A DNA stretch of 36,150 nucleotides from Nanobdellota archaeon (lineage in GTDB: Archaea > Nanobdellota > Nanobdellia > Woesearchaeales > JAHIVG01): contig JAHIVG010000063.1 of assembly GCA_018816705.1 (NCBI GenBank), positions 1 through 36,150 on the forward strand. Direction: 5' to 3'. Positions 1,536 to 32,381 of this stretch are shown here, piece by piece. Below the pieces are notes generated by a model. The model searched no databases, had not been told where the DNA came from, and worked only from the letters and a program-made list of their open reading frames with translations. Positions within the stretch are counted from its first letter, which is position 1; each line of letters begins with the position of its first letter. The position numbers were made by a program, and so were the translations under genes.

Positions 1536-1553
1536 ACGGCGAACGAGAGCCGT
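1536..1553. terminator. Short inverted repeat between convergent genes
   Basis: ACGGC and GCCGT form a perfect 5-bp stem around an 8-nt loop in the gap between two convergent genes; the last base touches the ispEH stop codon. No T-run follows on either strand, so a terminator role is only a suggestion. Confidence 0.2.
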
Positions 1554-3169
1554 CAGATAAGCATCTTTAAAGCATCAATCACTTCATCAACAATCCACTG
1601 CGGCGTCGAGGCGCCGGCTGTTATTCCGACCTTTTCCTTGCCGAAGAACCATTCCGGTTGCATTTCGTCTGCGGTCTCGACGTGCTTTGTATCACAATAT
1701 TTCTCGCACACTTCCTTGAGGCGCTTCGTGTTCGACGATATCATGCCCCCGACAACTATCATCAGGTCTGATGATTTCGCAAGCTCGATGGCATATCTCT
1801 GCCTGTCTTTTGTCGAGGAGCAGATAGTATCGATGATCTCAGCCTCAGGATTCAATTTCTTTATCTTGTCCCCGACTTCTTTGAAGTCTTCGACCTCTCG
1901 CGTGGTCTGGGAGACGACAGATACCTTTCCGCTTACATCGCTGAGCTCTTTTCCGTCCACGATCGCATAATCCTTGAGGTTTCCGACTATCCCTTTTACC
2001 TCGGCGTGATCCCTGTCACCGAACACGATTATCTTCCTGCCCTTATTCTCCTCTTTTTTCGTGATGTCATGCACCTTCTTGACTAGCGGGCATGTCAGGT
2101 CTATGAGCTTGAGCCCAGATCTGGTGATGTCTTCCCTGACATTGTCTGACACGCCGTGCGCTGATACGACGATAGTCCCTTTCAGGCCGGTGTAATCGTC
2201 GACCACCCTTATGCCGTCTTTTTCCAGGCCCTTTATGACTTGGGGGTTGTGGATCAACTTTCCCAGGACGAAGACATCTTCCTTCCCCCTCAGCTTGTCT
2301 ATCTCGTCCATGGCCCTCTTGACCCCGAAGCAGAAGCCCATGACTTCTGCACAATCGATTCGTTTATTGATGGTTTCAGTGATGAAGACGTTTTCATATT
2401 GCTTTTTCAGACTTTCAGCGACGGCCTCGGCTTCTTGTTCATTATCGAACAACCCGAAGACACAGCTGCCAGAGCCAGACATCAATGCGTGCCCGCCGAG
2501 TTTCTGCTTGATTTGTGCCAATTCAGGATGCTTCTTGAAGACTGTTGCCTCGAAGTCGTTGTGCATGAGGTCCAGATCATATGATTCCATGAACTTCCTT
2601 GACGATCTCTTCTTTCCGACAGCATTTAGCTCCAATCCTGAATACGCATCTTTCGTGCTAACGCCGAAACCTGGGTGCACGAGGACGACATGATATTTTG
2701 GCAGGTCCTTCAGCTTCTCGATGATATCGTTCCTGCCCGTGCCAAGACAAGTGCCGCCGACGATATGGAATGGCAGGTCCATGCTGAGCTCCTTCCCTTG
2801 TCTCATTAATTCTTTCTGAGAGAGGCCCAGTTTCCACATGATATTCAGACCTTTCATCACTGCTGCGGCGTTCGAGCTCCCGCCAGAAAGCCCGGACCCG
2901 ACAGGGATGTTCTTCTTGAGCTGGATGCTCACTCCATTTTTCACATGATGATGCTCCTTCAGCAGCTTTGCAGTCTTGAAGGCGAGATTGTCCTCGTTCT
3001 CCAGCTCCTTGATGTTGCACTTGAGCCTGATGCTGTCCGCCGGCTCCAGGATGAGTTCATCATATAGCTCTATCTGCTGGAAAATGGTCTCCACGTCATG
3101 ATAACCGTCTTTCCTCTTGCCGAGCACGTCCAGGCAGAGGTTTATCTTCGCATAGGAGCGCAGTCGCAT
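1553..3169 (-). CDS. ispEH: IspE-IspH fusion: CDP-ME kinase and HMBPP reductase
   Basis: This 538-residue protein joins two MEP enzymes. Residues 1 to about 268 are IspE, the GHMP kinase that phosphorylates CDP-methylerythritol: SYAKINL with Lys8, the ATP loop PVGSGLSGGSSNAAA at 89-103, and Asp131 in MDLPFHIVGG. From about 270 to the end is IspH, the 4Fe-4S reductase that makes IPP and DMAPP from HMBPP: cluster cysteines Cys280 (GFCFGV), Cys360 (LTCPLV) and Cys450 (DTICSST), His307, His338 and His388, catalytic Glu390 (DHAEVKG), SQTT, SSN at 478-480 and TAGAST near 521. Both halves look complete and active, with essentially no linker. The ATG at 3169 is chosen over TTG at 3175 because of the TATA-like box at 3192-3200. 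IspE and IspH catalyse non-adjacent steps, and I know of no described IspE-IspH fusion. Confidence 0.95.
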   Translation of the reverse strand: MRLRSYAKINLCLDVLGKRKDGYHDVETIFQQIELYDELILEPADSIRLKCNIKELENEDNLAFKTAKLLKEHHHVKNGVSIQLKKNIPVGSGLSGGSSNAAAVMKGLNIMWKLGLSQKELMRQGKELSMDLPFHIVGGTCLGTGRNDIIEKLKDLPKYHVVLVHPGFGVSTKDAYSGLELNAVGKKRSSRKFMESYDLDLMHNDFEATVFKKHPELAQIKQKLGGHALMSGSGSCVFGLFDNEQEAEAVAESLKKQYENVFITETINKRIDCAEVMGFCFGVKRAMDEIDKLRGKEDVFVLGKLIHNPQVIKGLEKDGIRVVDDYTGLKGTIVVSAHGVSDNVREDITRSGLKLIDLTCPLVKKVHDITKKEENKGRKIIVFGDRDHAEVKGIVGNLKDYAIVDGKELSDVSGKVSVVSQTTREVEDFKEVGDKIKKLNPEAEIIDTICSSTKDRQRYAIELAKSSDLMIVVGGMISSNTKRLKEVCEKYCDTKHVETADEMQPEWFFGKEKVGITAGASTPQWIVDEVIDALKMLI

Positions 3170-3191
3170 GAGCAACAGAATTCTAGAAGGG

Positions 3192-3200
3192 TATTTATTA
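3192..3200 (-). promoter_or_regulatory. TATA-like box of ispEH
   Basis: The minus strand reads TAATAAATA, centred 27 nt before the ATG at 3169. It shows that ispEH is transcribed separately from the dxs operon upstream. Confidence 0.6.
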
Positions 3201-3201
3201 C

Positions 3202-3696
3202 TTATGTATTGGGATTAAAGACCCTGTACTGTGCTGTACCCAGGACTATCTCTAACGCAACTTTTCCGCTGACTATCTTCGGATAAAATTTTTCCATGGC
3301 TGATCGGGCCTCTCGATCCATATGTCTCTTGCCGCTTTTATACTGTTCTGCGACGTATTGAGCGATCATGCTTATGTCTTGCTTATCGACACCATTCCAG
3401 ATCTTATCACAGACCTCTCTTTTTGTCTCATCATCCAGGTCAGTCCTCCATAGCTTTATCCCAAACGAGGCTTTTTCCTTATGTATCATCCTAGGTTGGA
3501 TCCAGATGTCATACTGTTCTGTAGAAGTATTTTTTGTGATTTCTGTCCAGAGATCCAGGCTTTCATAATCTTCCCATTGATGACCATCATGTAGGGCTTC
3601 CCTGATAATAGCCTTAAGAGGGGGGCTGCTCTGCTGAATATTGGTCCATAGCCTGTCTTCAACTGAAGTGATGATCTCTGGTTTTTCTTTTGCCAT
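3202..3696 (-). CDS. Unknown 164-residue protein
   Basis: No family is recognised. The protein starts MAKEKPEIITSVEDRLW and looks soluble and mostly helical, with many charged residues and a Trp-containing middle (LDLWTEITKN, YDIWIQPRMI). The frame is open upstream to an ATG at 3720, but the TATA-like box at 3719-3735 overlaps that codon and predicts a transcript beginning close to 3696. It lies between the two MEP transcription units on the same strand but has its own promoter, so a pathway role is not implied. Confidence 0.65.
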   Translation of the reverse strand: MAKEKPEIITSVEDRLWTNIQQSSPPLKAIIREALHDGHQWEDYESLDLWTEITKNTSTEQYDIWIQPRMIHKEKASFGIKLWRTDLDDETKREVCDKIWNGVDKQDISMIAQYVAEQYKSGKRHMDREARSAMEKFYPKIVSGKVALEIVLGTAQYRVFNPNT

Positions 3697-3718
3697 CAGG
3701 GTGAAGGATTGATTTCCC

Positions 3719-3735
3719 ATTTATAAATCTTTCGG
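3719..3735 (-). promoter_or_regulatory. BRE-TATA element of the CCRAAAGATTT type
   Basis: The minus strand reads CCGAAAGATTTATAAAT. The TATA part is centred about 27 nt before the ATG at 3696 and decides that start. The whole element is shared with three other promoters in the window. Confidence 0.6.
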
Positions 3736-3774
3736 AAAAGTCACCACTATGGGATGTCAACATATGTATGGTAC

Positions 3775-3868
3775 TCATCCTGCCAGGTAATCAAGAATGT
3801 TCCTTATCCCGGCCTTGATCTCTCTCCGATGAGCGATTTTTTCCGCTGTGGGCAGCTGGGTATAAACA
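3775..3868 (-). pseudogene. Possible coding remnant without a start codon
   Basis: Just after the next gene's stop codon, a different minus-strand frame stays open for about 31 codons with protein-like composition (VYTQLPTAEKIAHRREIKAG and then NILDYLAG) and ends at a TGA. It has no ATG, GTG or TTG start. It could be the tail of the neighbouring small gene after a frameshift, or chance. Confidence 0.2.
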
Positions 3869-4141
3869 TTACCTATCTAGGAACTTGTCAGCAGGATACC
3901 AGCTGAGACTCTCATCCCATCCCTCACCGAGGAAGTAATCTCCAGGGTTCTTGAAGTTGTGGTTGTGCGCCATATCCTTGGCATTCGCAAAGCCGATCGC
4001 AGTGGCCATGTGATGGACATCATCGTATCCTAGGCCTCTAACCCTTGCGTCGATAGTCTCGCGTTCCTTGTCAGTCAGGCCGTCAGGGCCTGCTTTTCTC
4101 ACTTCTATCCCCTGCCCCAAAAAGTATAATGCGAATTCCAT
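3869..4141 (-). CDS. Unknown 90-residue protein
   Basis: A small acidic protein starting MEFALYFLGQGIEVRKAG. It has a charged middle (TDKERETIDARVRGLG) and a His-rich stretch with HHMATAIGF and MAHNHNFKNPG. No family is recognised. The ATG at 4141 lies 26 nt after a TATA-like box. An open stretch in another frame follows its stop codon directly, so a frameshifted longer ancestor is possible. Confidence 0.5.
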   Translation of the reverse strand: MEFALYFLGQGIEVRKAGPDGLTDKERETIDARVRGLGYDDVHHMATAIGFANAKDMAHNHNFKNPGDYFLGEGWDESLSWYPADKFLDR

Positions 4142-4162
4142 AGAAGATATGAAATATCAGAT

Positions 4163-4172
4163 GATATTAATG
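4163..4172 (-). promoter_or_regulatory. TATA-like box of the 90-residue protein gene
   Basis: The minus strand reads CATTAATATC, centred about 26 nt before the ATG at 4141. Confidence 0.4.
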
Positions 4173-4212
4173 TTTTTCTGTATTCAGAGCTGCTTCCCTA
4201 TTGTCTCAGGTC

Positions 4213-4575
4213 TTAGGAATCTTTATGTTCGTCTACTGCATTAAATAATGAAGGGATTTGAAGTGCTGCTCCATCATGAATTAAGAGGGTCACTCTGGTT
4301 TTTATAATATCGGGATTTTTTCCTATATCATGATTTTTCTTTTTAACTTCTGCTAAATAAACTTTTTCTCCATCATGTGTATGATAAAAAACATCTTCAC
4401 CATCAGTAAGGGGATTAGCAAAAGGGACGTTGTCCATATCGAGGCCATAAAAGCTTCCATCATGGCCACGAGAACCAGCACCGCAACGTTGTGTTATCAA
4501 CTCCAGGTCTTCCTTTTGGATCATACGGTGCGTTTTAGGAAACTGTATGTGTAGGTCGTAAGTGTTTATTTTCAT
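4213..4575 (-). CDS. Unknown 120-residue protein
   Basis: No family is recognised. The protein starts MKINTYDLHIQFPKTHRMIQ and appears to be a small soluble alpha/beta protein, with FYHTHDGEKVYLAEVKKK in the middle and a strand-like TRVTLLIHDG near the end. Base composition is clearly more AT-rich than the MEP genes, which may mark a recent arrival. The start is supported by a strong TATA-like element. Confidence 0.6.
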   Translation of the reverse strand: MKINTYDLHIQFPKTHRMIQKEDLELITQRCGAGSRGHDGSFYGLDMDNVPFANPLTDGEDVFYHTHDGEKVYLAEVKKKNHDIGKNPDIIKTRVTLLIHDGAALQIPSLFNAVDEHKDS

Positions 4576-4595
4576 ATTAGAAATACTGCTTCACT

Positions 4596-4610
4596 ATTTA
4601 AATCTTTTGG
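4596..4610 (-). promoter_or_regulatory. BRE-TATA element of the CCRAAAGATTT type
   Basis: The minus strand reads CCAAAAGATTTAAAT, with the TATA part about 25 nt before the ATG at 4575. It is one of four near-identical elements in the window. Confidence 0.6.
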
Positions 4611-4624
4611 TCAATTACCACTCA

Positions 4625-5323
4625 TTAGTGGTTTATTACCGGCTGACCAGCGTCACCCCCTGCGCGGGGAGGGGCTATCCTGCTCTCAGGAAAATTCTCC
4701 TGTAAATAATGGTTCAAGAACTCGAGATCAAGCATCTCCTTGGGCGTGGCCCGTCTCACCTTCTTTACCAGCCCAGGCTCTTTTAGATCCTCGGCACTGT
4801 AGAAGGCCTCTTCATACTCACCGATCCTGAGGCAAGCCTCCACGTATTCCCTGGAGCCATATGATTCCCTATTCAGCCGTTTCCATTCCTGTGACGCATC
4901 CCTCAGCTGCTCGATCCAGGCTGAGTAAGCGTCCAGGTCATATGGTTGTTGCTGTGTTCTAAGCTCTGTCATCAGCTCCCTCTCCAGCCGGCTCGAGGAT
5001 TTCATGTGCCTCCTCTCAACCTGGCTCAGTAGGACTGCGCCTTTAAGCGAGCCGATTGTTGTTATGAACCCTGTCCTTGAAGCGGTCGCAATCCTATAAC
5101 ATTCCATAGCAGGCATAATATCTCCGGACTGGAGGTATCTCATTCCAAGCGTCTCATATGCATCAGTCTGTAGCATGGATGGCGCTTGGACAGGTGCTTC
5201 ACGGAGCAGCATCTTTCTCAATGTCCCGTCAGTCCGGAACTGGTCGCCTATCCTCGCAGGCATGAAATCATACACTATCGCTTGATCCTGGGGGATCGGT
5301 TTTCCTGTCCCTAATCTGAACAT
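4625..5323 (-). CDS. Unknown helical protein, possibly TPR-like
   Basis: A 232-residue, mostly helical protein. The segment LGMRYLQSGDIMPAMECYRI at about residues 59-78 has the spacing of a tetratricopeptide helix pair, and YVEACLRIGEYEEAFYSAED at about 158-177 looks like a second one, so a repeat scaffold for protein contacts is plausible. The tail is Pro/Gly-rich. The gene follows ispDF on the same strand but has its own TATA-like box lying over the ispDF stop codon, so it may be partly cotranscribed. No catalytic motif is visible. Confidence 0.6.
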   Translation of the reverse strand: MFRLGTGKPIPQDQAIVYDFMPARIGDQFRTDGTLRKMLLREAPVQAPSMLQTDAYETLGMRYLQSGDIMPAMECYRIATASRTGFITTIGSLKGAVLLSQVERRHMKSSSRLERELMTELRTQQQPYDLDAYSAWIEQLRDASQEWKRLNRESYGSREYVEACLRIGEYEEAFYSAEDLKEPGLVKKVRRATPKEMLDLEFLNHYLQENFPESRIAPPRAGGDAGQPVINH

Positions 5324-5344
5324 GATGAGGGGTAATGATCACTG

Positions 5345-5353
5345 ATATTTATT
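5345..5353 (-). promoter_or_regulatory. TATA-like box overlapping the ispDF stop codon
   Basis: The minus strand reads AATAAATAT, centred 26 nt before the ATG at 5323. It overlaps the last codons of ispDF. Confidence 0.5.
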
Positions 5354-6485
5354 CCTTCCTCAAGCTCACCACGCAGAAGCACTGCATGCCCAAGCCTTTG
5401 CCGAAATCAGAGAGCTCTTCCCCAGATGTAGCCGTGATGCCGATCCTGTGGGCCTTGATGCCGGTCAGCCCGGCCAGGCTCTCCTTTATGGAGTCCTCCT
5501 TGCCGGCAATCATCGGCCTCTTGCCCTCAAGCATCACTGCAATGTTCCCGATACTGTATCCGCGCTCCTTCATCATCTTCAATATCACCTTCAGGTATTC
5601 CTTGCTGTCCGTGACTCCGGACTTGCACATGGGGTCAGAATAATAGGATATCGATTTTTCACCTATCCCTGACGAGACCGCATTGAAAAGGGCATGCAGC
5701 AATACATCCGCATCAGAGTTGCCCTCGAAGCCCATGCCATCGAACTTGACTCCGCCCAGCATCAGCGGCTTTTCCTTTTCAGAGAATCGGTGAGAGTCCA
5801 TGCCGAAGCCTATCCGCGAATGCATGTCATTTGCTAGCGAAAGGTCGTTAGGCAGCGTAATCTTGATGTTGTCGGGAGGGCACTCGACCATCTTCACCTT
5901 CTTCCCAAGCCTTTCGACGAGCATTACATCATCCGTGCCTATATATTCTTCAGCAGAAGCCTTCTCGAATGCCTCCTTAGCAAGCCCTAGATTGATCGCC
6001 TGGGGCGTCTGCACCTGCCACAGCCTCTGCCTGTCCAGGGTCTTCCTGACAAAGCCCTCATCCACCTCTTTGATGGTGTCCCTTGCCTTGAACCCGCAGA
6101 CAGCCGCACCGTGTTCCCCGGCTGCCTCGATGCATCTGATTATCGTGCCCTCATCCACCATGGGGTTGGCGCCGTTGTGTATCACGACTATATCATCATC
6201 TGAGCCGGTTATCGCCTTCAGCCCGTTGTGCACCGAATGCTGCCTCTCCTCGCCGCCAGTGACCACTTCCTGGACTTTTGAGAACTCCTTGCACAATCCC
6301 TCTATCTCCTCTCGGTCATGGTGGTTCGCAACCACGATGATCTTGCCTATCCGCTTGCAGTCCTGGAACTTCCTGAGGGTCTTGGCCAGGATGGGCTCGC
6401 CGTTCAGCAGCATGAGAAGCTTATTCATCTTCGCATTCATCCTTTTACCCTTTCCTGCTGAAGTGATCAACGCGTAGTTTGTCAT
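5349..6485 (-). CDS. ispDF: IspD-IspF fusion: MEP cytidylyltransferase and MECDP synthase
   Basis: This 378-residue protein makes CDP-methylerythritol (IspD, 1 to about 220) and cyclises its phosphorylated form to MECDP (IspF, about 223-378). IspD shows SAGKGKRM with Arg15, Lys22, GGEERQHSVHNGL, ARDTIK with Thr137, LWQVQTPQ and NIKITLP with Lys208. The usual VHDAARP is replaced by IHNGANP, so the positions of E. coli Asp106 and Arg109 are Asn104 and Asn107. IspF keeps metal ligands Asp230, His232 and His264 plus ATSGE, but other active-site positions differ: HSD is NSD at 256-258, and the GDIG region reads GEKS at 275-278. IspDF fusions are known in bacteria. The ATG shares one base with the dxr stop codon (TAATG), so the two genes are probably coupled in translation. 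Confidence 0.93.
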   Translation of the reverse strand: MTNYALITSAGKGKRMNAKMNKLLMLLNGEPILAKTLRKFQDCKRIGKIIVVANHHDREEIEGLCKEFSKVQEVVTGGEERQHSVHNGLKAITGSDDDIVVIHNGANPMVDEGTIIRCIEAAGEHGAAVCGFKARDTIKEVDEGFVRKTLDRQRLWQVQTPQAINLGLAKEAFEKASAEEYIGTDDVMLVERLGKKVKMVECPPDNIKITLPNDLSLANDMHSRIGFGMDSHRFSEKEKPLMLGGVKFDGMGFEGNSDADVLLHALFNAVSSGIGEKSISYYSDPMCKSGVTDSKEYLKVILKMMKERGYSIGNIAVMLEGKRPMIAGKEDSIKESLAGLTGIKAHRIGITATSGEELSDFGKGLGMQCFCVVSLRKE

Positions 6486-7600
6486 TATCCTATTACCTTC
6501 GCGGTGTCCTTTTTAATCTTTCTGTCCAGGTCGAGCAGCTCATCGAGCTCAGGCCTCATGACAGGTTGATGCTTCTGCATCTGCTCCTTGATCAGCCTGG
6601 GGATGTCTGAAAATCCGATTGTGCCATCCAAAAATGCCTTAACCGCGACCTCATTGGCCGCGTTCATCACGCATGGCATGCTCCCTCCGATCCTGCCGGC
6701 TTCGTAAGCATATCCTAAGCAGGGGAACCTCTCCAGGTCCGGCTCGTCAAATGTCAGCTTTCCCACTTTCACCAGGTCGAGCGGCTTCATGGCTGTCTCC
6801 ATCCTCTTGGGATGCGACAGCGCATATTGTATGGGTATCTTCATGTCTGGCCAGCCGAGCTGCGCCAACACAGAGCTGTCCTCGAACTCCACGAGCGAGT
6901 GTATTATGCTCTGCGGGTGGACCACGACCTTGATGTCATCATAACTGAGTCCGAAGAGCATATGTGCTTCTATTACCTCGAACCCTTTGTTCATCAGCGT
7001 GGCTGAATCAATGGTTATCTTCTTCCCCATGCTCCAGTTGGGATGCTTCAGCGCGTCTGCCGCCTTCAGGTTCTTCATCTCGTCAATCGTCTTTTCCATG
7101 AAAGGGCCGCCAGAGCATGTTATCATGATCTTCCTTATCTTGTCCCCTGTCTGCGCGCATTGGAATATGGCTGAGTGCTCAGAATCGATAGGCTTTATCT
7201 CTACTTTATGCTTGCGAGCAAGGTCCATCACTATACTTCCTGCGCTCACCAGGGTCTCCTTGTTGGCCAGCGCAATCTCCTTCCCGGCTTTAATGGCTTC
7301 AACCGTCGGCTCCACTCCTATGCTGCCCACCAATGAATTCAGCACAGTGTCTGCCCCATCCAGGGAAGCGATCCTCTTCAGCCCTGCCATGCCTGATTCA
7401 GCCGAAACCATTTCAGCCTTCTCCTTGTCATATACACTTATCATTTCAGGCTTGAACTCGTTCATCTGCTCCTTGAGTAGCTTGACATTGGAATGGCATG
7501 ACAGCCCCACTACCTTGAACTCGGAAGGATGACTCCGGACTATGTCCAGCGCCTGCTGGCCGATGCTTCCGGTGCTGCCGAGTATGACCAGTCTCTTCAT
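6485..7600 (-). CDS. dxr: 1-deoxy-D-xylulose 5-phosphate reductoisomerase
   Basis: Dxr (IspC) rearranges and reduces DXP to methylerythritol 4-phosphate with NADPH, the first committed MEP step. The 371-residue protein has the N-terminal NADPH loop LGSTGSIGQQALDIV, the ANKETLVSAG segment, metal ligands Asp139 and Glu141 in PIDSEHSAIFQC, the TCSGGPF loop, HPNWSMGKKITIDSATLMNK at about 186-205 with ligand Glu208, and GWPDMKIPIQYAL. All hallmark positions I know are present, so it should be active. It overlaps ispG by 4 nt (ATGA) and has a good Shine-Dalgarno (GGAG) inside the end of ispG, as expected for an internal operon gene. Confidence 0.97.
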   Translation of the reverse strand: MKRLVILGSTGSIGQQALDIVRSHPSEFKVVGLSCHSNVKLLKEQMNEFKPEMISVYDKEKAEMVSAESGMAGLKRIASLDGADTVLNSLVGSIGVEPTVEAIKAGKEIALANKETLVSAGSIVMDLARKHKVEIKPIDSEHSAIFQCAQTGDKIRKIMITCSGGPFMEKTIDEMKNLKAADALKHPNWSMGKKITIDSATLMNKGFEVIEAHMLFGLSYDDIKVVVHPQSIIHSLVEFEDSSVLAQLGWPDMKIPIQYALSHPKRMETAMKPLDLVKVGKLTFDEPDLERFPCLGYAYEAGRIGGSMPCVMNAANEVAVKAFLDGTIGFSDIPRLIKEQMQKHQPVMRPELDELLDLDRKIKKDTAKVIG

Positions 7601-8628
7601 CCGCCAATCTCCTTCAGCAGGGTGCTGATGATATCCTTTTCCTCAATCTTATCAATGACTTTCCCGTCCTTGTAGAGCAGGACCTTCTCGCCGGCTCCGA
7701 CAACTCCAAGGTCTGCTTCCTTGGCCTCACCTGGCCCGTTGACCGAGCATCCCATCACTGCTATCTTCATCGGCTTCTTGATGCCTGCTGTCTTCTCTTC
7801 CAGCTCCTTGGCAATGGCCGCAACGTCAATGTCATTCCTGGCGCACGTGGGGCATGCTATTACGCTCACTCCGCGCTGCCTCAGCCCCAGCGCCTTCAGT
7901 ATCTGCCAGCCTGCCCTGACCTCTTCGACAGGGTCGCCTGACAATGACACTCTTATCGTGTCACCTATGCCCTGGCTGAGCAGTATGCCCATGCCTACAG
8001 AGCTGTTTATCGTGCCTGTGAAGGCCGTGCCTGCTTCTGTGATGCCCAGGTGCAGTGGATAGTCATGCCACTTTGAGAACAGCCTGTTCGCCTCAATGGT
8101 CTTGTTGACGTCTGACGCCTTCAGCGACACTACGATGTCATGGAAATCATTCTTCTCCAGTATCTCGATATGTCTCTTGGCCGATTCCACCATGGCTCCT
8201 GCTGTCAGGCCGAGCCTGGCCTCCATATCCTTCTCCAGGCTGCCGAGGTTCACGCCTATCCTTATGGGCAGGGAATACTCTTTTGCCACAAACACTACCT
8301 TGCTTATCTTCTCCTCGTCACCGATGTTGCCCGGATTTATACGGAGCTTGTCCACATGCTTGGCAGCCTCGAGCGCCAATCTGTAATCAAAATGGATGTC
8401 CCCCACCAAGGGGATATTGATTTCCTGCCTTATCTCCTTCAAGGCCTTGGCTGATTCCATGTCCGGCACAGCGACCCTGATTATTTCGCAGCCCGCGTCC
8501 TCTAGCTGGTTTATCTGCGCAACCGTGGCCTTGACATCCTTGGTATCGGTGTTGGTCATGCTCTGCACACTTATGGGTGAGCCTCCGCCGATGTGCAGTT
8601 TTCCGATTTTTACTTTCCTGGTCTTCAT
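7597..8628 (-). CDS. ispG: HMBPP synthase IspG
   Basis: IspG opens the cyclic diphosphate MECDP to HMBPP using a 4Fe-4S cluster and two external electrons. The 343-residue protein is the short bacterial form without the insert found in plant enzymes. It starts with VQSMTNTDTKDV, has LVGDIHFDYRLAL and LRINPGNIG, and carries the cluster ligands Cys259 and Cys262 (ACPTCARND), Cys294 (GCSVNGPGE) and Glu301, matching Cys270, Cys273, Cys305 and Glu312 of E. coli. It overlaps dxs and dxr by 4 nt each. The electron donor (ferredoxin or flavodoxin) is not in the window; an Isc-type cluster assembly operon lies about 16 kb away. Confidence 0.97.
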   Translation of the reverse strand: MKTRKVKIGKLHIGGGSPISVQSMTNTDTKDVKATVAQINQLEDAGCEIIRVAVPDMESAKALKEIRQEINIPLVGDIHFDYRLALEAAKHVDKLRINPGNIGDEEKISKVVFVAKEYSLPIRIGVNLGSLEKDMEARLGLTAGAMVESAKRHIEILEKNDFHDIVVSLKASDVNKTIEANRLFSKWHDYPLHLGITEAGTAFTGTINSSVGMGILLSQGIGDTIRVSLSGDPVEEVRAGWQILKALGLRQRGVSVIACPTCARNDIDVAAIAKELEEKTAGIKKPMKIAVMGCSVNGPGEAKEADLGVVGAGEKVLLYKDGKVIDKIEEKDIISTLLKEIGG

Positions 8629-10463
8629 GCCAGCTTCCTCTTTATGTTCTCTTTCTCCAACCCTATCTTTTTCCTCAGGATGCCCTGCGGTCCGTGCTCG
8701 ATGAACTCGTCCGGTATCCCTATGCGCTCTACCGGTATTTTAATGTTGTTCTCCTGCAGCAGCTCGAGTATGGCTGAGCCGAAACCTCCTTGCAGAGAGT
8801 TCTCTTCTATAGTAAGGACCTTCTTGGCGCCTTTCACCGCGTCCAGGATCCTCTTCCTGTCCAAAGGCTTGGCGAAGCGTGCATTTATTATCGTGCAGTC
8901 CGCATCCAGCTCTTCGGCTGCCTCCAAGGCCATAGTCACACAAGGGCCGATGCAGATCACTGCTGTCTTCCTGCCTTTCCTCAAGACCTTGGCCTTGCCT
9001 ATCTTGACAGGCTTGGGCTCCTCATAGACCTTCCTTCCCTCGCCGCATCCTCTCGGATACCTGATGGCCACAGGCCCATTGTGGTTTAAGGCTGTCTTCA
9101 TCATCCTGCCGAGCTCGTTCTCGTCTTTCGGCGCCATTATCACCAGGTTTGGCACAGTCCTTAAGAAAGCCAGGTCGAATGAGCCATGATGCGTTGCGCC
9201 GTCATCGCCTACAAGTCCTGCCCGGTCTATCGCGAACACGACAGGAAGATTCTGTAGGCAGACATCATGTATTATCTGGTCATATGCACGCTGCAAGAAG
9301 GTCGAATATATTGCCACAACCGGCCTGAAGCCCTGAGCGGCCATTCCTGCAGCGAACGTTACCGCATGCTGCTCGGCGATTCCGACATCAAAAAATCTCG
9401 AGGGGAATTGCCTGGCAAACCTGTCAAGACCTGTTCCTGGCGCCATGGCAGCGGTTATCGCGACTATCCTCTTGTCCCTTTCAGCCAGGCGTAATAGCAT
9501 TTGGGAAAAAGCGTCCGTATATGAGATGGGGCCGTCGCATTTTATTGCGTTCCCGTTGCCCACATTGAACTTGCTTATGCCATGGAACCTGGTCTTGTCC
9601 TTCTCTGCGAACCTGTATCCCTTTCCTTTCTTGGTACGTACGTGCAGGAGGATGGGGCCCTTGAGCCTCTTGATATTGTCCAGGGCATGCACCATGCTCC
9701 CTATATTGTGGCCGTTTATCGGGCCGTAGTAGTTGAAGCCGAGCTGCCTGAACAGCATGCCCGGGCTGAATAGCGCCCTTGCCGTCTTCTCGAAGCCGAG
9801 TATCAGGTTTGCTGCCTGCTTGCCCAGCGGGAGGTTCTTGATGCGGTTGATCTTCTCCCTGACATTGGCGTAGTGGGGGATGGTGACCATGCGGTGCAGG
9901 TAATTGGACCACGCGCCGACATTCTTCGAGATGCTCATGCCGTTGTCGTTCAGGATTATGATGATATCGGTCTTGAGGTGGCCTGCATTGTTCAGGCCTT
10001 CGAAGGCCAGGCCGCCTGTCAGGGCGCCGTCGCCTATCACTGCGATCACGCTGTGCCTCTCCCCTTTCAGGTCGCGTGCCTTGGCCATGCCTAGGGCTGC
10101 GGAGATGGATGTCGAGCTGTGGCCTGTTCCAAAGGCATCATGTTCTGATTCCTGCATGGCTGGGAATCCTGAGAGGCCCTTGTACTGCCTTATGGTGTGG
10201 AACCTATCTTTCCTCCCGGTGAGGAGCTTGTGCGTGTAGCTCTGATGGCCGACATCCCAGATTATCTTGTCCTTGGGCGAGTCGAATACGTGATGGAGGG
10301 CGATAGTGAGCTCCACAACTCCCAGGCTGGGCGCGAGATGGCCTCCTGTCTTTGAGACCGTGCTGATTATCTCCTGCCTTATCTCTCCTGCCAGCGCCCG
10401 CATCTGCTTCTCGCCGAGCAGTTTCAGGTCCTGCGGAGACTGGATGGTGTCAAGGAGCCCCAT
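8625..10463 (-). CDS. dxs: 1-deoxy-D-xylulose-5-phosphate synthase
   Basis: Dxs joins pyruvate and glyceraldehyde 3-phosphate to DXP using thiamine diphosphate. With the ATG at 10463 it has 612 residues, starting MGLLDTIQSPQDLKLL like bacterial Dxs. It shows His42 (GGHLAPSLG), His73 (DVGHQSYTHK), the thiamine-diphosphate motif GDGALTGG with Asp145 and NDN at 172-174, catalytic Glu364 (GIAEQHAVTFAAG) and DRAGLVGDDGATHHG with Arg414 and His425. The frame stays open for 27 more codons upstream, but those contain the TATA-like box and are not conserved in Dxs. It is the first gene of the dxs-ispG-dxr-ispDF operon and overlaps ispG by 4 nt. Confidence 0.97.
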   Translation of the reverse strand: MGLLDTIQSPQDLKLLGEKQMRALAGEIRQEIISTVSKTGGHLAPSLGVVELTIALHHVFDSPKDKIIWDVGHQSYTHKLLTGRKDRFHTIRQYKGLSGFPAMQESEHDAFGTGHSSTSISAALGMAKARDLKGERHSVIAVIGDGALTGGLAFEGLNNAGHLKTDIIIILNDNGMSISKNVGAWSNYLHRMVTIPHYANVREKINRIKNLPLGKQAANLILGFEKTARALFSPGMLFRQLGFNYYGPINGHNIGSMVHALDNIKRLKGPILLHVRTKKGKGYRFAEKDKTRFHGISKFNVGNGNAIKCDGPISYTDAFSQMLLRLAERDKRIVAITAAMAPGTGLDRFARQFPSRFFDVGIAEQHAVTFAAGMAAQGFRPVVAIYSTFLQRAYDQIIHDVCLQNLPVVFAIDRAGLVGDDGATHHGSFDLAFLRTVPNLVIMAPKDENELGRMMKTALNHNGPVAIRYPRGCGEGRKVYEEPKPVKIGKAKVLRKGRKTAVICIGPCVTMALEAAEELDADCTIINARFAKPLDRKRILDAVKGAKKVLTIEENSLQGGFGSAILELLQENNIKIPVERIGIPDEFIEHGPQGILRKKIGLEKENIKRKLA

Positions 10464-10556: not shown

Positions 10557-11087
10557 ATGACATATAAGACGCCTCTTGAGACCGCCCTCACAAGGGAACT
10601 ACAGCGGGTAGGGCATCCGTTCGTGAGCAGGAGGCTTTATCAGCAGGCGGATATAAACCAGGCCCAGTTTCCTATTGGGGATCCGGCGGACCTTGGAGTG
10701 AGGGACAGATTTTCTAATCCATCCGAGATCATAGTTGAGACTCGGACTGGAACCCAAGGGAAGATCGCTGTCGAATATGAGGTCGAGCCAAGCAGGCAGA
10801 ACATGGATCTTCTAAGGGGAATAACCCCAGATGATTATGAAGATGCTATAAGTGGAATCCTCAGGGAAAGGAGCTTCTTCTCTGAGAATGTCATAGTACT
10901 GGATTATTCGGCCGATATTTCCTGTATCGTCTCTGCGGTGTTCTTCTGGGATGGCGGCATGTTTAATGACAAGCACAAGGATGTGCCTGCCTATTTCTTC
11001 AAAGGCATCGACTCTATTGAAGATGCAGACCTGCTGGCCGAGAGGATAGCTGATTATATTGCGAAGCACAGGGCAAGAAAGCATTGA
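10557..11087 (+). CDS. Unknown protein, paralogue of the gene at 11715
   Basis: A 176-residue soluble protein of unknown family. Its N-terminus (TPLETALTRELQRVGHPF) and middle (ILRERSFFSENVIVLDY) align by eye with TPLEKELDAQLQLIGLPF and ILERRSFFTEEVMVWDE of the gene at 11715, so the two are paralogues. The first third is a helix that could read as a small-domain motif; the middle is strand-rich, and the C-terminus is a long basic helix (LLAERIADYIAKHRARKH). It diverges from dxs, with the two starts only 93 nt apart. Confidence 0.65.
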   Translation: MTYKTPLETALTRELQRVGHPFVSRRLYQQADINQAQFPIGDPADLGVRDRFSNPSEIIVETRTGTQGKIAVEYEVEPSRQNMDLLRGITPDDYEDAISGILRERSFFSENVIVLDYSADISCIVSAVFFWDGGMFNDKHKDVPAYFFKGIDSIEDADLLAERIADYIAKHRARKH

Positions 11088-11690: not shown

Positions 11691-11714
11691 AGCTGTTATG
11701 ATGACCCCTTGCCC

Positions 11715-12299
11715 ATGCCCTACATGACCCCGCTCGAGAAGGAGCTCGACGCCCAGCTGCAGCTAATCGGTTTGCCTTTCTGCAACAGGATACTGATACA
11801 CGAGGCTGTCATCAACGATATGGTGGATGACATTCATGTCCCTGACTATTTCCGCAGGTTGGCCGGCAGGCCTGAGAAAGTCACCTTGAGCTGGGATGCT
11901 TTCCTGGTGCATAGGAACACCGAGACAGGCGGCAGGGTGTCAGTGGTGTACGATGTCTTTCCCAGCGAGGGCGACATGAGGGAGATGGCCAACACCCTGT
12001 ACGGCCATCACGAGGAGGCCATCGATAGGATCCTGGAGCGGAGGTCCTTCTTCACGGAGGAGGTCATGGTCTGGGATGAGGCCATGATAAGGAAGCTCAA
12101 GCAGCATAAAGAATTAGGCATGATGGTTGATGAGGACCAGGATGGTATTCTCCTTTTCGTACAGTTCAGGCCCAGAGGGATCGACACCTATATCGACCCG
12201 AGGCTGGACCAGGGCATGATGGATGGTATCAAGAGCCCTGTGACTGGAGCAGTAGAGCTTTCTAGAAGGATAGGGTATCTCGTCAAGAGCTATAGCTGA
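11715..12299 (+). CDS. Unknown protein, paralogue of the gene at 10557
   Basis: A 194-residue protein starting MPYMTPLEKELDAQLQLIGL, clearly related to the 176-residue protein at 10557 over the N-terminal helix and the RSFF segment (ILERRSFFTEEVMVW at about 105). It adds a Lys/Asp-rich stretch and FRPRGIDTYIDPRLDQGMMD. The family appears to be an N-terminal amphipathic helix followed by an alpha/beta domain; I recognise no homologue. The last 10 nt overlap the end of the convergent gene at 12290. Confidence 0.65.
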   Translation: MPYMTPLEKELDAQLQLIGLPFCNRILIHEAVINDMVDDIHVPDYFRRLAGRPEKVTLSWDAFLVHRNTETGGRVSVVYDVFPSEGDMREMANTLYGHHEEAIDRILERRSFFTEEVMVWDEAMIRKLKQHKELGMMVDEDQDGILLFVQFRPRGIDTYIDPRLDQGMMDGIKSPVTGAVELSRRIGYLVKSYS

Positions 12300-24735: not shown

Positions 24736-25019
24736 ACCAGTTCTTCGAGGTCATTGCTAACCGCACAAGGCTGAAGATAATCCAGTCCCTGTACAAGTCG
24801 CCAAAGTGTGTGAAGGACATATGCGAGGATATCAAGGAAGAGCAGTCCAACGTCAGCCACAGCCTCAGGCTGCTGGCCAAATGCCATTTCGTCAAGGTCA
24901 AGCAAGAGGGAAAATGCAGGGTCTACTCGCTGCAGGAGAAGACCATAATGCCGATAATGCGCATGGTAGACCAGCATGTGAAGTCCCACTGCACAGGCCA
25001 TTGCTGGAGGAGACAATGA
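24717..25019 (+). CDS. ArsR-family regulator of the Isc operon
   Basis: A 100-residue winged-helix protein of ArsR type: FFEVIANRTRLKIIQSL, then the recognition region EEQSNVSHSLRLLAKCHFVK, then a beta wing (GKCRVYSL). Seven cysteines (3, 31, 36, 56, 67, 92, 96) and the C-terminal HCTGHC suggest that it senses a metal or an Fe-S cluster. It overlaps iscS by 4 nt (ATGA), so it is the first gene of the cluster-assembly operon and probably controls it, like IscR or SufR in bacteria but from another family. A palindrome over its own start codon is a likely operator. Confidence 0.8.
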   Translation: MKCHSYDQFFEVIANRTRLKIIQSLYKSPKCVKDICEDIKEEQSNVSHSLRLLAKCHFVKVKQEGKCRVYSLQEKTIMPIMRMVDQHVKSHCTGHCWRRQ

Positions 25020-26197
25020 TATACCTCGATAATGCTGCAACAACCAGGATGGATCCTGATGTATTGAAAGAGATGCTCCCATACTTGAAGGAGCGTTTCG
25101 GCAACCCCAGCTCCATGCATTACATGGGCATGGAAGCCAAGAACGCAGTAGAGGGATCGAGGAAAAAGATAGCCAACCATCTGAATTGCCAGCCAGAAGA
25201 GTTGATCTTCACCGGCTCTGGCACAGAATCCGACAACCTGGCTATATTGGGCTTCGCCAGGCAGAACAAGGAGAGGGGCAATCACCTCATAACATCAAAG
25301 ATAGAGCACCCTGCTGTCATGAACTGCTTCAAGCAATTGGAGAAAGAAGGCTTCAACATTACCTATATCGATGTGGACACCGACGGAATCATTGACCTGA
25401 AGCAGCTGGAGAATGCAATCACAGCAAAGACCATCCTGGTCTCGGTCATCTACGCCAACAACGAGATTGGCGTCATCCAGGACATCCCTGCGATAACCGA
25501 TATATGCAGGAAGAACAAAGTCACTTTCCACACAGATGCTTGCCAGGCGACTAACTATCTGGAAATAGACGTGAAGAAGCTCGGCGTGGACATGATGACC
25601 ATAAACGCCTCGAAGATCTACGGCCCCAAGGGTGTAGGTGTCTTATTCAGACGCAAGGGCACAGGCATACAGCCAATCATCTTCGGCGGCGGCCAGGAAT
25701 CCGGCTTGCGCGCAGGCACTGAGAACGTCGCCAACATAGTCGGCATGGCAAAGGCCCTGGAGCTCGCAATAAAGATGGGAGAAAAGGAATCAGCGAGGAT
25801 CGGAAAGCTCAGGGATCGGCTAATCGACGGCCTGTTGGAGTTGCCAGAGACCAGGCTGAACGGCCACCCGACCAAGAGGCTGCCGAACAACGTCAACATT
25901 TCATTCCTCAACATCGAAGGGGAATCACTGCTGCTCATGATGGGCGAGGAAGGCATCTACGCCTCGACCGGCAGCGCATGTTCATCCAGCAAGCTGGAGC
26001 CATCGCATGTTATAACCGCAATAGGCATGCCGCATGAGATATCGCATTCATCAATAAGGATGACCCTCGGCCGGCAGACGACCAAGAAGGACATCGACCA
26101 GGTGCTGGACAAGATGCCCGGTATCGTCGAGAGGCTCCGTAAGATATCCGCACTAAACATGACGATGGAACATGTGTTAGGTGATAAGCATGGCTGA
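25016..26197 (+). CDS. iscS: Cysteine desulfurase (NifS/IscS type)
   Basis: A 393-residue PLP enzyme that takes sulfur from cysteine for Fe-S cluster assembly. It shows YLDNAATTRMDP at the start, His98 (EHPAVMN), Asp174 (HTDACQA), the PLP lysine Lys200 in NASKIYGPKG and the persulfide cysteine Cys322 in TGSACSS. In most NifS/IscS the lysine is preceded by histidine (SxHK); here that position is Ser199. Translation starts at 25016, overlapping arsR by 4 nt with a GGAGGA Shine-Dalgarno upstream. A longer in-frame reading from 24806 is an artefact that overlaps arsR. The name nifS would fit equally well. Confidence 0.95.
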   Translation: MIYLDNAATTRMDPDVLKEMLPYLKERFGNPSSMHYMGMEAKNAVEGSRKKIANHLNCQPEELIFTGSGTESDNLAILGFARQNKERGNHLITSKIEHPAVMNCFKQLEKEGFNITYIDVDTDGIIDLKQLENAITAKTILVSVIYANNEIGVIQDIPAITDICRKNKVTFHTDACQATNYLEIDVKKLGVDMMTINASKIYGPKGVGVLFRRKGTGIQPIIFGGGQESGLRAGTENVANIVGMAKALELAIKMGEKESARIGKLRDRLIDGLLELPETRLNGHPTKRLPNNVNISFLNIEGESLLLMMGEEGIYASTGSACSSSKLEPSHVITAIGMPHEISHSSIRMTLGRQTTKKDIDQVLDKMPGIVERLRKISALNMTMEHVLGDKHG

Positions 26198-26624
26198 CAT
26201 AAAGAAAAAAGAGACAGGGCAGCAGTGGTTCTATTCAGACACTGTGAAGGAGCATTTCCTGCATCCGCATAACATGGCGAACGAAGACAAGTTGATTGAT
26301 GAAATGAGACCGAATGCCATGGGAGAGGTAGGCAGCCCTGCCTGCGGAGACGTGATGAAGATGTGGCTACATATAGACGACGGCCGCATAAAGAAGTGCC
26401 TATGGCGGACCTTCGGCTGCGCATCAGCCATCGCATCGACTTCTGTCCTTTCGGAGATGGTCACAGAGAAAGGCGGCATGACCTTAGAAGAGGCTGAGAA
26501 GATAAGGCCCAAGGACATAATCAAGCGCCTCGGCGGCCTGCCGCCATTGAAAGTGCATTGCTCAGTCCTGGGTGACCAGGCGCTGCGCGCTGCGATAGCC
26601 GACTATAAGAAGAAGGCCGAATGA
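26190..26624 (+). CDS. iscU: Iron-sulfur cluster scaffold IscU
   Basis: A 144-residue scaffold on which 2Fe-2S or 4Fe-4S clusters are built from the sulfur supplied by IscS. The conserved ligands are Cys52 and Asp54 (SPACGDVMK), Cys77 (RTFGCASAIASTS) and His123-Cys124 (KVHCSVLG), with one extra Cys70. The ATG at 26190 is preferred over GTG at 26181; it overlaps the end of iscS by 8 nt and has a weak Shine-Dalgarno (AGGTG). It ends the arsR-iscS-iscU operon. IspG and IspH in the same window need 4Fe-4S clusters. Confidence 0.93.
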   Translation: MADIKKKETGQQWFYSDTVKEHFLHPHNMANEDKLIDEMRPNAMGEVGSPACGDVMKMWLHIDDGRIKKCLWRTFGCASAIASTSVLSEMVTEKGGMTLEEAEKIRPKDIIKRLGGLPPLKVHCSVLGDQALRAAIADYKKKAE

Positions 26625-29982: not shown

Positions 29983-30495
29983 ATGCCGGAGATATTCGAC
30001 CTCGTGGACGAGAATAACAGGCCTACCGGCAAGACCGCGACCAGGGAGCAGGTCCACAAAGACCCCAGCCTGATACATAGGGCAGCTTATGTTTTCGTGA
30101 TAAATGATAAGGAAAAACTCTATATCAAGCGAAGGAGTCTAATCAAAGACCTGTCTCCCCTGTATTGGGAGGGCTCTGCCTCAGGGCATGTAGAGACCGG
30201 AGATAGTTATGAGGATACAGCCATGAAGGAATTGCAGGAAGAGACAGGGATAACCGGTGTGAAGATGGAGATGCTCGGCGACTTCAAACTGTTCATTGAT
30301 AAGGAGCGCGAGTGGCACCGCCTCTTCATCTGCCACCACAACGGCCCCATCACTCTGAACGAGGAATCCTCTGAAGGCCGGTTCGCATCCATAGATGGGA
30401 TCAAACGCCTCCTGGAAGACAAGGATATGAAGTTCACCCAGGCCTTCAGGAAAGCGTTCAAGATGTATCTGGAGCATCTGGACTCATCTGACTAG
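29983..30495 (+). CDS. NUDIX hydrolase, IPP isomerase-like
   Basis: A 170-residue NUDIX protein of the IDI/YfcD type. It starts EIFDLVDENNRPTGKTATR. His25 and His32 (EQVHKDPSLIHRA), His69 (SGHVETGDSY), Glu87 in KELQEETG, and Glu108 and Glu110 (KEREWHRLF) fall at the same positions as the metal ligands of E. coli IPP isomerase, but that enzyme's catalytic Cys67 is Ser67 here. The NUDIX box is slightly divergent (Asp74 for Glu, Lys82 for Arg). It may be a NUDIX pyrophosphatase or a changed isomerase. The MEP pathway already makes both IPP and DMAPP, so isomerase activity would be optional. Confidence 0.85.
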   Translation: MPEIFDLVDENNRPTGKTATREQVHKDPSLIHRAAYVFVINDKEKLYIKRRSLIKDLSPLYWEGSASGHVETGDSYEDTAMKELQEETGITGVKMEMLGDFKLFIDKEREWHRLFICHHNGPITLNEESSEGRFASIDGIKRLLEDKDMKFTQAFRKAFKMYLEHLDSSD

Positions 30496-30620: not shown

Positions 30621-32381
30621 ATGGCTATTGAGAGCTATATGCAGCCGTATTTCCTCAATGCAGCCGGAGCGCTGGCATTCCTCTCATTGATACCCTTCAT
30701 ACTCATATATCTCATAAGGCCCAAGCCCAAGGACAAGGTCATCTCCAGCCTGATGTTCATCTTCAAGAGCGAGGGCAGGATAAAGCAGAATTCCTTCTTC
30801 AGATACCTATTGAGGAACCTCCTTTTCCTGATGCAGCTCCTGACCATACTCCTGCTGGCCGCAGCCATAGCCACGCCATACATCAACACCACAGAAGGCA
30901 TAACCACCAAGAACTCTGTCATCGTCATCGACGCTTCTGCCAGCATGCAGACCCAAGACAACGGCAAGACCAGGTTTGACAAGGCAAAGGACATGGCCAG
31001 GGGCGTCATCGGCGAGCGCACCACCATAATACTGGCAGCGAACAACCCTGAGGTGCTGGCCAAGAACACCGGCAGGGGAGAGGCCTCAAGAATTCTCAAA
31101 CAGATAGAGCCCTACGAGACCACGACCAGCCTCAGCGACGCGGTGAGGTTCGGAGGGGAACAGCTGGATGCAGAGGGCAAGGTTACCGTGTTCAGCGACT
31201 TCATAATAGATGATGAAGAAGAATTACTGGTGATCAAGAACCTCCTGCAGAGCCAGGGCATAGCAGTGGATTTCATAGACCTGGGAACCGAGGCCGATAA
31301 CGTCGGGATAGTCGACCTTGAGCTAGGCGACACATCAAAGGTCATAGTGAAGAACTACGACGATAAAGAGCGGACCATAACTCTCAAGGTCGGCAAGAGC
31401 GAGCAGGAGCTCAAGCTCGAGCCCAACACCGCGTTGGGTGCTACGTTCGTGCTCCCGCCTGGAAAGACAGTCCTTGAGATAGATTCAGATGATGACTTCC
31501 CTATAGATGACAAGGCATATATCTCCGCGCCGGTCGAGCAGAAGACCTATATATTGATGATCGGCAACAGGCAGAACAGATACCTGAAGGCAGCATTGGA
31601 GGCAAACCCGAAGAACAAGGTGGTGATCGCAGAGCCCCCTCTCGTGGCAGACGTCCGCCAGGATGTCGTCATCCTCGACTTCTCGCACAAGGACCTGTTG
31701 CTCAAGGAGACGCTCAGGGAGATGCAGCAGAACGTGAGAGACGGCAACACCCTCATAATAATGGGCCAGGAGGACCTGGATGACATAAACCTGGGCGGCA
31801 TGCTGCCGGTCGAGTTCGAGGGATTCACCAACGACAGCTCCCAACCAATAATCCTGCCCACTCCCTACACAAAAGACGTTGAGGTGGGCATAGTCAAGGG
31901 CTATTTCAAGGCAAAGGCCCTGGAGAACACCGCGGAGGTCTTCAGGTTCGACGAGTACTGCCTCTTGTGCACTGCCAAGCATGGTGCGGGCAACGTCATA
32001 TTCTATGGCATCGACGACGAGAAGTCAGACTTCAAGACCTCTCCGAGCTACCCGATATTCTGGAACAGCCTGGTCAAGGAGATGACCGGCAGAAGCTCAT
32101 TGGACCAGCTGAACTTCAAGACAGGTACGATTCTCGGCGACCTCCACCTGTTCAATTCAGGCTTCGACAAGCTCGGCAACACCGACATAGCCGTGAACCT
32201 GCTGGATGACGTAGAGAGCGATGTCAGCAGGGCCAGCTCTTTCGAGGGCAGCATAGGCCTGGCCGAGGCAGCCTCTAGTGAGTTGACGCGGCCCTGGCCC
32301 TTTGACCACATACTTGCCATCGCTGCCTTAGCCATAATCCTTCTTGAGTTCCTATACCTCAAGTACAGGGGGGATTTCTGA
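30621..32381 (+). CDS. BatA-like membrane protein with a vWA domain
   Basis: A 586-residue protein with the BatA N-terminal layout: helix at 13-31, a basic loop, helix at 64-84, then a von Willebrand A domain with an intact metal site DASAS (Asp104, Ser106, Ser108 in VIVIDASASMQ). Beta-rich segments follow, and a C-terminal helix at about 563-579 (HILAIAALAIILLEFLYLKY). The vWA domain should lie outside the membrane. In bacteria and archaea such proteins sit in operons with MoxR-type AAA ATPases and DUF58 proteins, thought to act in envelope or protein-complex maturation. It is the first gene of the operon; its stop overlaps the next start (TGATG). Confidence 0.85.
   Translation: MAIESYMQPYFLNAAGALAFLSLIPFILIYLIRPKPKDKVISSLMFIFKSEGRIKQNSFFRYLLRNLLFLMQLLTILLLAAAIATPYINTTEGITTKNSVIVIDASASMQTQDNGKTRFDKAKDMARGVIGERTTIILAANNPEVLAKNTGRGEASRILKQIEPYETTTSLSDAVRFGGEQLDAEGKVTVFSDFIIDDEEELLVIKNLLQSQGIAVDFIDLGTEADNVGIVDLELGDTSKVIVKNYDDKERTITLKVGKSEQELKLEPNTALGATFVLPPGKTVLEIDSDDDFPIDDKAYISAPVEQKTYILMIGNRQNRYLKAALEANPKNKVVIAEPPLVADVRQDVVILDFSHKDLLLKETLREMQQNVRDGNTLIIMGQEDLDDINLGGMLPVEFEGFTNDSSQPIILPTPYTKDVEVGIVKGYFKAKALENTAEVFRFDEYCLLCTAKHGAGNVIFYGIDDEKSDFKTSPSYPIFWNSLVKEMTGRSSLDQLNFKTGTILGDLHLFNSGFDKLGNTDIAVNLLDDVESDVSRASSFEGSIGLAEAASSELTRPWPFDHILAIAALAIILLEFLYLKYRGDF

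Follow-up and report, generated by a model that had tools for sequence, protein, structure and literature searches.

The stretch of DNA analysed here (the window, 36,150 bases) carries on its minus strand, between positions 1553 and 10463, five complete ORFs that together encode all seven activities of a bacterial-type MEP pathway. These genes represent the only detectable route to IPP in the genome of their archaeal host, a 1.74-Mb draft (G000) of which the window is one whole contig (C107). We consider it probable that this sole MEP route is of old bacterial origin, that its products end up in a carrier lipid and that the membrane lipids of the cell are imported or otherwise made. The enzymes encoded by the five ORFs would convert pyruvate and glyceraldehyde 3-phosphate into IPP and DMAPP, and the C5 units would most likely be condensed by one trans-polyprenyl synthase encoded on another contig (C66). 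A cis-prenyltransferase encoded on C66 would then extend the chain to give a polyprenyl phosphate carrying sugars for surface glycans, while some or all of the membrane lipids would come from outside or from an enzyme set that our searches did not recognise.

The ORFs were compared with Pfam and NCBIfam models, and an activity was called when at least one curated activity-specific model was passed over its cut-off. As the original prediction had claimed, all seven activities were found on intact ORFs, each above such a cut-off (Table 1). In the IspDF fusion, the IspD part (residues 5-219) scored 215 bits with TIGR00453 (cut-off 181) and the IspF part (residues 224-376) 131 bits with TIGR00151 (cut-off 116), and the protein matches the bifunctional IspDF structures 1w55 and 8xhu over its whole length. 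In the IspE-IspH fusion, the IspE part (residues ~3-271) scored 241 bits with TIGR00154 (cut-off 139) and the IspH part (residues ~273-537) 267 bits with TIGR00216 (cut-off 188). This fusion probably starts at the ATG at 3169, and a plausible start for dxs, at 10463, is Met28 of the longest ORF (MGLLDTIQSP...).

Table 1. Features annotated in the window and the matches on which each assignment is based.
Feature	Coordinates	Strand	Basis
dxs	8625..10463	-	TIGR00204, 846 bits (cut-off 466), full length; PF13292; active-site motifs in translation
ispG (gcpE), HMBPP synthase, flavodoxin/ferredoxin-dependent	7597..8628	-	NF001540, 488 bits (cut-off 345)
dxr, DXP reductoisomerase type I	6485..7600	-	TIGR00243, 503 bits (cut-off 316); NF009114, 517 bits; tree
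ispDF fusion, MEP cytidylyltransferase + MEcDP synthase, 378 aa	5349..6485	-	TIGR00453, TIGR00151
Four ORFs of unknown family between ispDF and ispE-ispH	3202-3720, 3869-4141, 4213-4575, 4625-5323	-	
ispE-ispH fusion, CDP-ME kinase + HMBPP reductase, 540 codons	1553..3175	-	TIGR00154, TIGR00216
TATA-like box TTTATAAA	10480..10500	-	~30 bases upstream of dxs ATG; consensus match only
nifS/iscS cysteine desulfurase + nifU/iscU scaffold	24806..26624	+	TIGR03402, 525 bits (cut-off 531); NifU_N PF01592

The five genes had been described as adjacent, which holds for dxs, ispG, dxr and ispDF. These four are contiguous, overlap their neighbours by 1 to 4 bases and appear to form a single transcription unit. 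In contrast, about 2.2 kb (3176-5348) split ispDF from ispE-ispH. Of the four ORFs in this spacer, those at 3202-3720, 4213-4575 and 4625-5323 gave no Pfam or NCBIfam match, and a tblastn search with all four against 28 related loci returned none at 1e-4. The sequence TTTATAAA upstream of dxs and a AATAAATA box that precedes ispE-ispH are compatible with archaeal TATA promoters.

Elsewhere on the contig, the nifS/nifU pair is a possible source of 4Fe-4S clusters for IspG and IspH. A Nudix gene (29983-30495) was considered as an IPP isomerase, an assignment that proved unsupported: its best match is YfcD, under all cut-offs, and the Cys expected in the IPP isomerase motif is replaced (SASGHV). 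Two paralogous ORFs of unknown family (10557-11087 and 11709-12299, 35% identical over 127 aa) sit among other ORFs of unknown family, and positions 30621-34849 encode two consecutive VWA-domain proteins, the first of which matches BatA and DUF7407/DUF7408.

The catalytic motifs had been read as nearly all intact, and rightly so, the exceptions lying in IspD and IspF; residues of the other MEP enzymes, among them the retained iron-sulphur ligands of IspG, were read by eye against known motifs. IspD retains R20, K27, R157, T165 and K213, and IspF retains D8, H10 and H42. The HDAARP motif of IspD reads HNGANP in the window, and HDGARP in the nearest solved IspD. Asn occupies both sites that correspond to D106 and R109 of E. 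coli, in the window as well as in 20 of the 21 relatives; the last has Ser at 109. In IspF, His34 is replaced by Asn and Asp56 by Ser, again in nearly all relatives. Because these changes are so widely shared, they do not indicate decay, and the D106N/R109N change of IspD is, judging from the sequences of the relatives, a lineage trait.

Every MEP enzyme is bacterial in type and the genome is a draft of 114 contigs, as might be expected if the cluster were a bacterial contaminant or the product of a chimeric assembly. Several observations argue against such an artefact. The genome is estimated to be 94.4% complete with 0.58% contamination, and the contig itself carries nre, a gene of an archaeal family. 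Composition, which the original prediction had proposed to compare, is uniform along the contig, with GC3 values of 0.66-0.72 for the MEP genes against 0.72 and 0.74 for the archaeal neighbours nre and ileS; on the same grounds, a recent transfer judged by composition was rejected. Furthermore, a solid Dxr was found in 27 of the 371 genomes surveyed in the host phylum, many with a similar cluster, and these sequences form one archaeal group. Since the same MEP genes recur in independently assembled relatives, the contig is not a bacterial-archaeal chimera, and an artefact, largely refuted by these independent assemblies, is extremely improbable. The SSU rRNA of the genome scored best within its clan with the archaeal model RF01959 (723 bits). 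The 371 genomes (0.5-2.1 Mb) belong mostly to one order and span dozens of families; from the structure of this survey and from published traits, the archaeal host is most probably a member of the Woesearchaeota (GTDB Nanobdellota/Woesearchaeales).

Two genomes with weak Dxr matches (G103 and G143) were left out of the 27. Most of the regions fetched around the Dxr-positive loci have further MEP genes in a similar order. To place the archaeal sequences, 25 archaeal rows were combined with 80 bacterial loci found by similarity to Dxr, a search that returned bacteria only. All 25 archaeal rows fell on one side of a branch adjoining Bacillota sequences (SH-aLRT 88), and the same picture emerged for IspG at 43 of these loci, where the 15 archaeal rows grouped together (SH-aLRT 93), although sampling was biased to near matches and support is moderate in both trees. 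For each gene, the archaeal copies thus sit together in one group, surrounded by bacterial sequences that are mostly from Firmicutes. Biased sampling and moderate support leave the donor unfixed, but the two genes back the proposed acquisition of a bacterial gene set, which seems to have taken place long ago and to have been followed by retention within the lineage.

The MEP genes appear to stand alone in supplying IPP. A search for GHMP kinases across the whole genome returned IspE as its sole match; therefore, the genome lacks mevalonate kinase and related enzymes. Nor was HMG-CoA reductase found, while all four archaeal control genomes gave a match. Neither HMG-CoA reductase nor a mevalonate-type GHMP kinase, the two markers used to recognise the archaeal mevalonate route, was thus detected by these family searches of a 94.4% complete genome. 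Across the phylum, Dxr and HMG-CoA reductase were found together in a single genome (G090), and 324 of the 371 genomes lack both HMG-CoA reductase and a solid Dxr. A strict mutual exclusion of the two pathways is not supported, as one co-occurrence compares with about 1.5 expected by chance.

The original prediction also held that the MEP pathway builds ether-lipid precursors. This inference is unsupported because GGGP synthase (GGGPS), UbiA/DGGGP synthase and G1P dehydrogenase (Fe-ADH_2 type) were not found by family searches of the genome, although, at about 94% completeness, each of these could be encoded in a part of the genome that the draft lacks. GGGPS was clear in only one (G145) of the 47 Dxr- or HMGR-bearing genomes, the other matches being short and weak; it was thus not clearly found in 45 of the host's 46 relatives in this set. 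PMC8421398 likewise describes MEP-bearing Woesearchaeota as missing GGGPS and DGGGPS. That the pathway nevertheless supplies the cell's own archaeal ether lipids would agree with the trans-polyprenyl synthase and the geranylgeranyl-reductase-like flavoprotein encoded by the genome, and with a UbiA-family gene in 10 of the 27 Dxr-positive genomes, some of which may have a partial lipid pathway; given the missing enzymes, we regard this as unlikely.

A polyprenyl sugar-carrier lipid, dolichol- or undecaprenol-like, is the likely main product, as suggested by a gene group on C66 and by the recurrence of its cis-prenyltransferase gene in relatives. There, the genes for the trans-polyprenyl synthase and for a cis-prenyltransferase (UppS, 271 bits) lie about 165 bases apart, beside the gene for a geranylgeranyl-reductase/lycopene-cyclase-like flavoprotein (L152:10636-11895), and 26 of the 27 Dxr-positive genomes, the set surveyed for UppS, encode it. 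The flavoprotein matches the lycopene cyclase family PF05834 (42 bits), which would suit a pathway serving mainly carotenoid-like pigments, or else tRNA prenylation or quinones, and not a glycan carrier. The strong match and near-universal retention of UppS in this set speak against these uses, as does, for quinones, the lack of a detected UbiA prenyltransferase in the genome, and we judge them slightly less likely still than ether-lipid synthesis. A second, divergent cis-prenyltransferase (L153:6355-7128, contig C33) is encoded beside a cytidylyltransferase-like gene (TIGR00125/RfaE-like).

The IspE-IspH fusion occurs in four genomes (G000, G014, G025 and G471) from three families. The frames are continuous over 547-553 codons in G014 and G025, and over 768 codons in G471, where an extra N-terminal HAD-like domain was recognised by eye. 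The junction is colinear with that of the window at L157 and L158, and L159 adds the N-terminal domain; the ORF at this last locus (G471:C54, 1501-3804, minus strand) reads as HAD-like phosphatase, IspE and IspH in one frame. In four further genomes (G205, G104, G416 and G427), ispE and ispH are neighbours with stops in between. Members of family f11 (G112, G178, G234 and G518) have a lone IspE and, on another contig, a distant IspH 34-35% identical to that of the window, suggesting that IspH may have been replaced within the family. An AlphaFold model of IspEH built from four sequences was too weak to use (mean pLDDT 68, pTM 0.50, IspE half worst). Opinion can be evenly divided on a more far-reaching proposal, in which the bacterial pathway would serve solely to make sugar-carrier polyprenols, the membrane lipids would come from elsewhere and a bifunctional IspE-IspH would have evolved that links reactions which do not follow one another in the pathway, in one case with a HAD-like domain added.

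These results make the genome a well-supported addition to the few archaea using the MEP route, and indicate that a cell with this route need not make archaeal membrane lipids. The fate of the isoprenoids and the source of the membrane are relevant both to the 'lipid divide' and to how far archaea with small genomes depend on hosts, and the IspE-IspH fusion is an arrangement open to test by enzymologists.

The gene set itself, although correctly observed, is ordinary for the group. The occurrence of MEP genes in DPANN genomes, to which the original prediction tentatively pointed, is confirmed by two papers, and the surprise it expressed was overstated, the pathway having already been published for a Woesearchaeota clade. 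These papers report it in a clade of 52 genomes (PMC8204110, Front Microbiol 2021) and in subgroups F and J (PMC8421398, Nat Commun 2021), and between them they already describe fused IspDF, a closeness to Firmicutes and the lack of GGGPS and DGGGPS. In the latter, the bacterial neighbours differ from gene to gene, dxr and ispG being nearest to Firmicutes while ispDF groups with Nealsonbacteria, and the archaea concerned are considered perhaps unable to make membrane lipids because these two enzymes are lacking. Our genome resembles this clade in its co-located bacterial MEP genes, in the IspD-IspF fusion, in dxr and ispG nearest to Firmicutes and in the absence of detected GGGPS, DGGGPS and mevalonate pathway. 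Whereas PMC8421398 presents MEP as the only pathway of Woesearchaeota, our survey found HMG-CoA reductase in 17 genomes of the same order. Unlike the clade as described in the portions of the literature covered, a limited test, the window also fuses IspE to IspH; the altered HDAARP motif of IspD that the relatives share was likewise not found there, and these two details are the modest novelty of this work. As in the bacterial fusion of IspH with ribosomal protein S1 (NF000907), IspH is one domain of a fused protein; in contrast to that fusion, the archaeal partner is IspE, N-terminal to IspH, with the HAD-like domain before both in G471. Finally, the IspDF of the window has the same domain order and a similar length as bacterial bifunctional IspDF (PDB 1w55), but carries, like its archaeal relatives, HNGANP in place of the HDAARP motif that holds D106 and R109 in E. 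coli.
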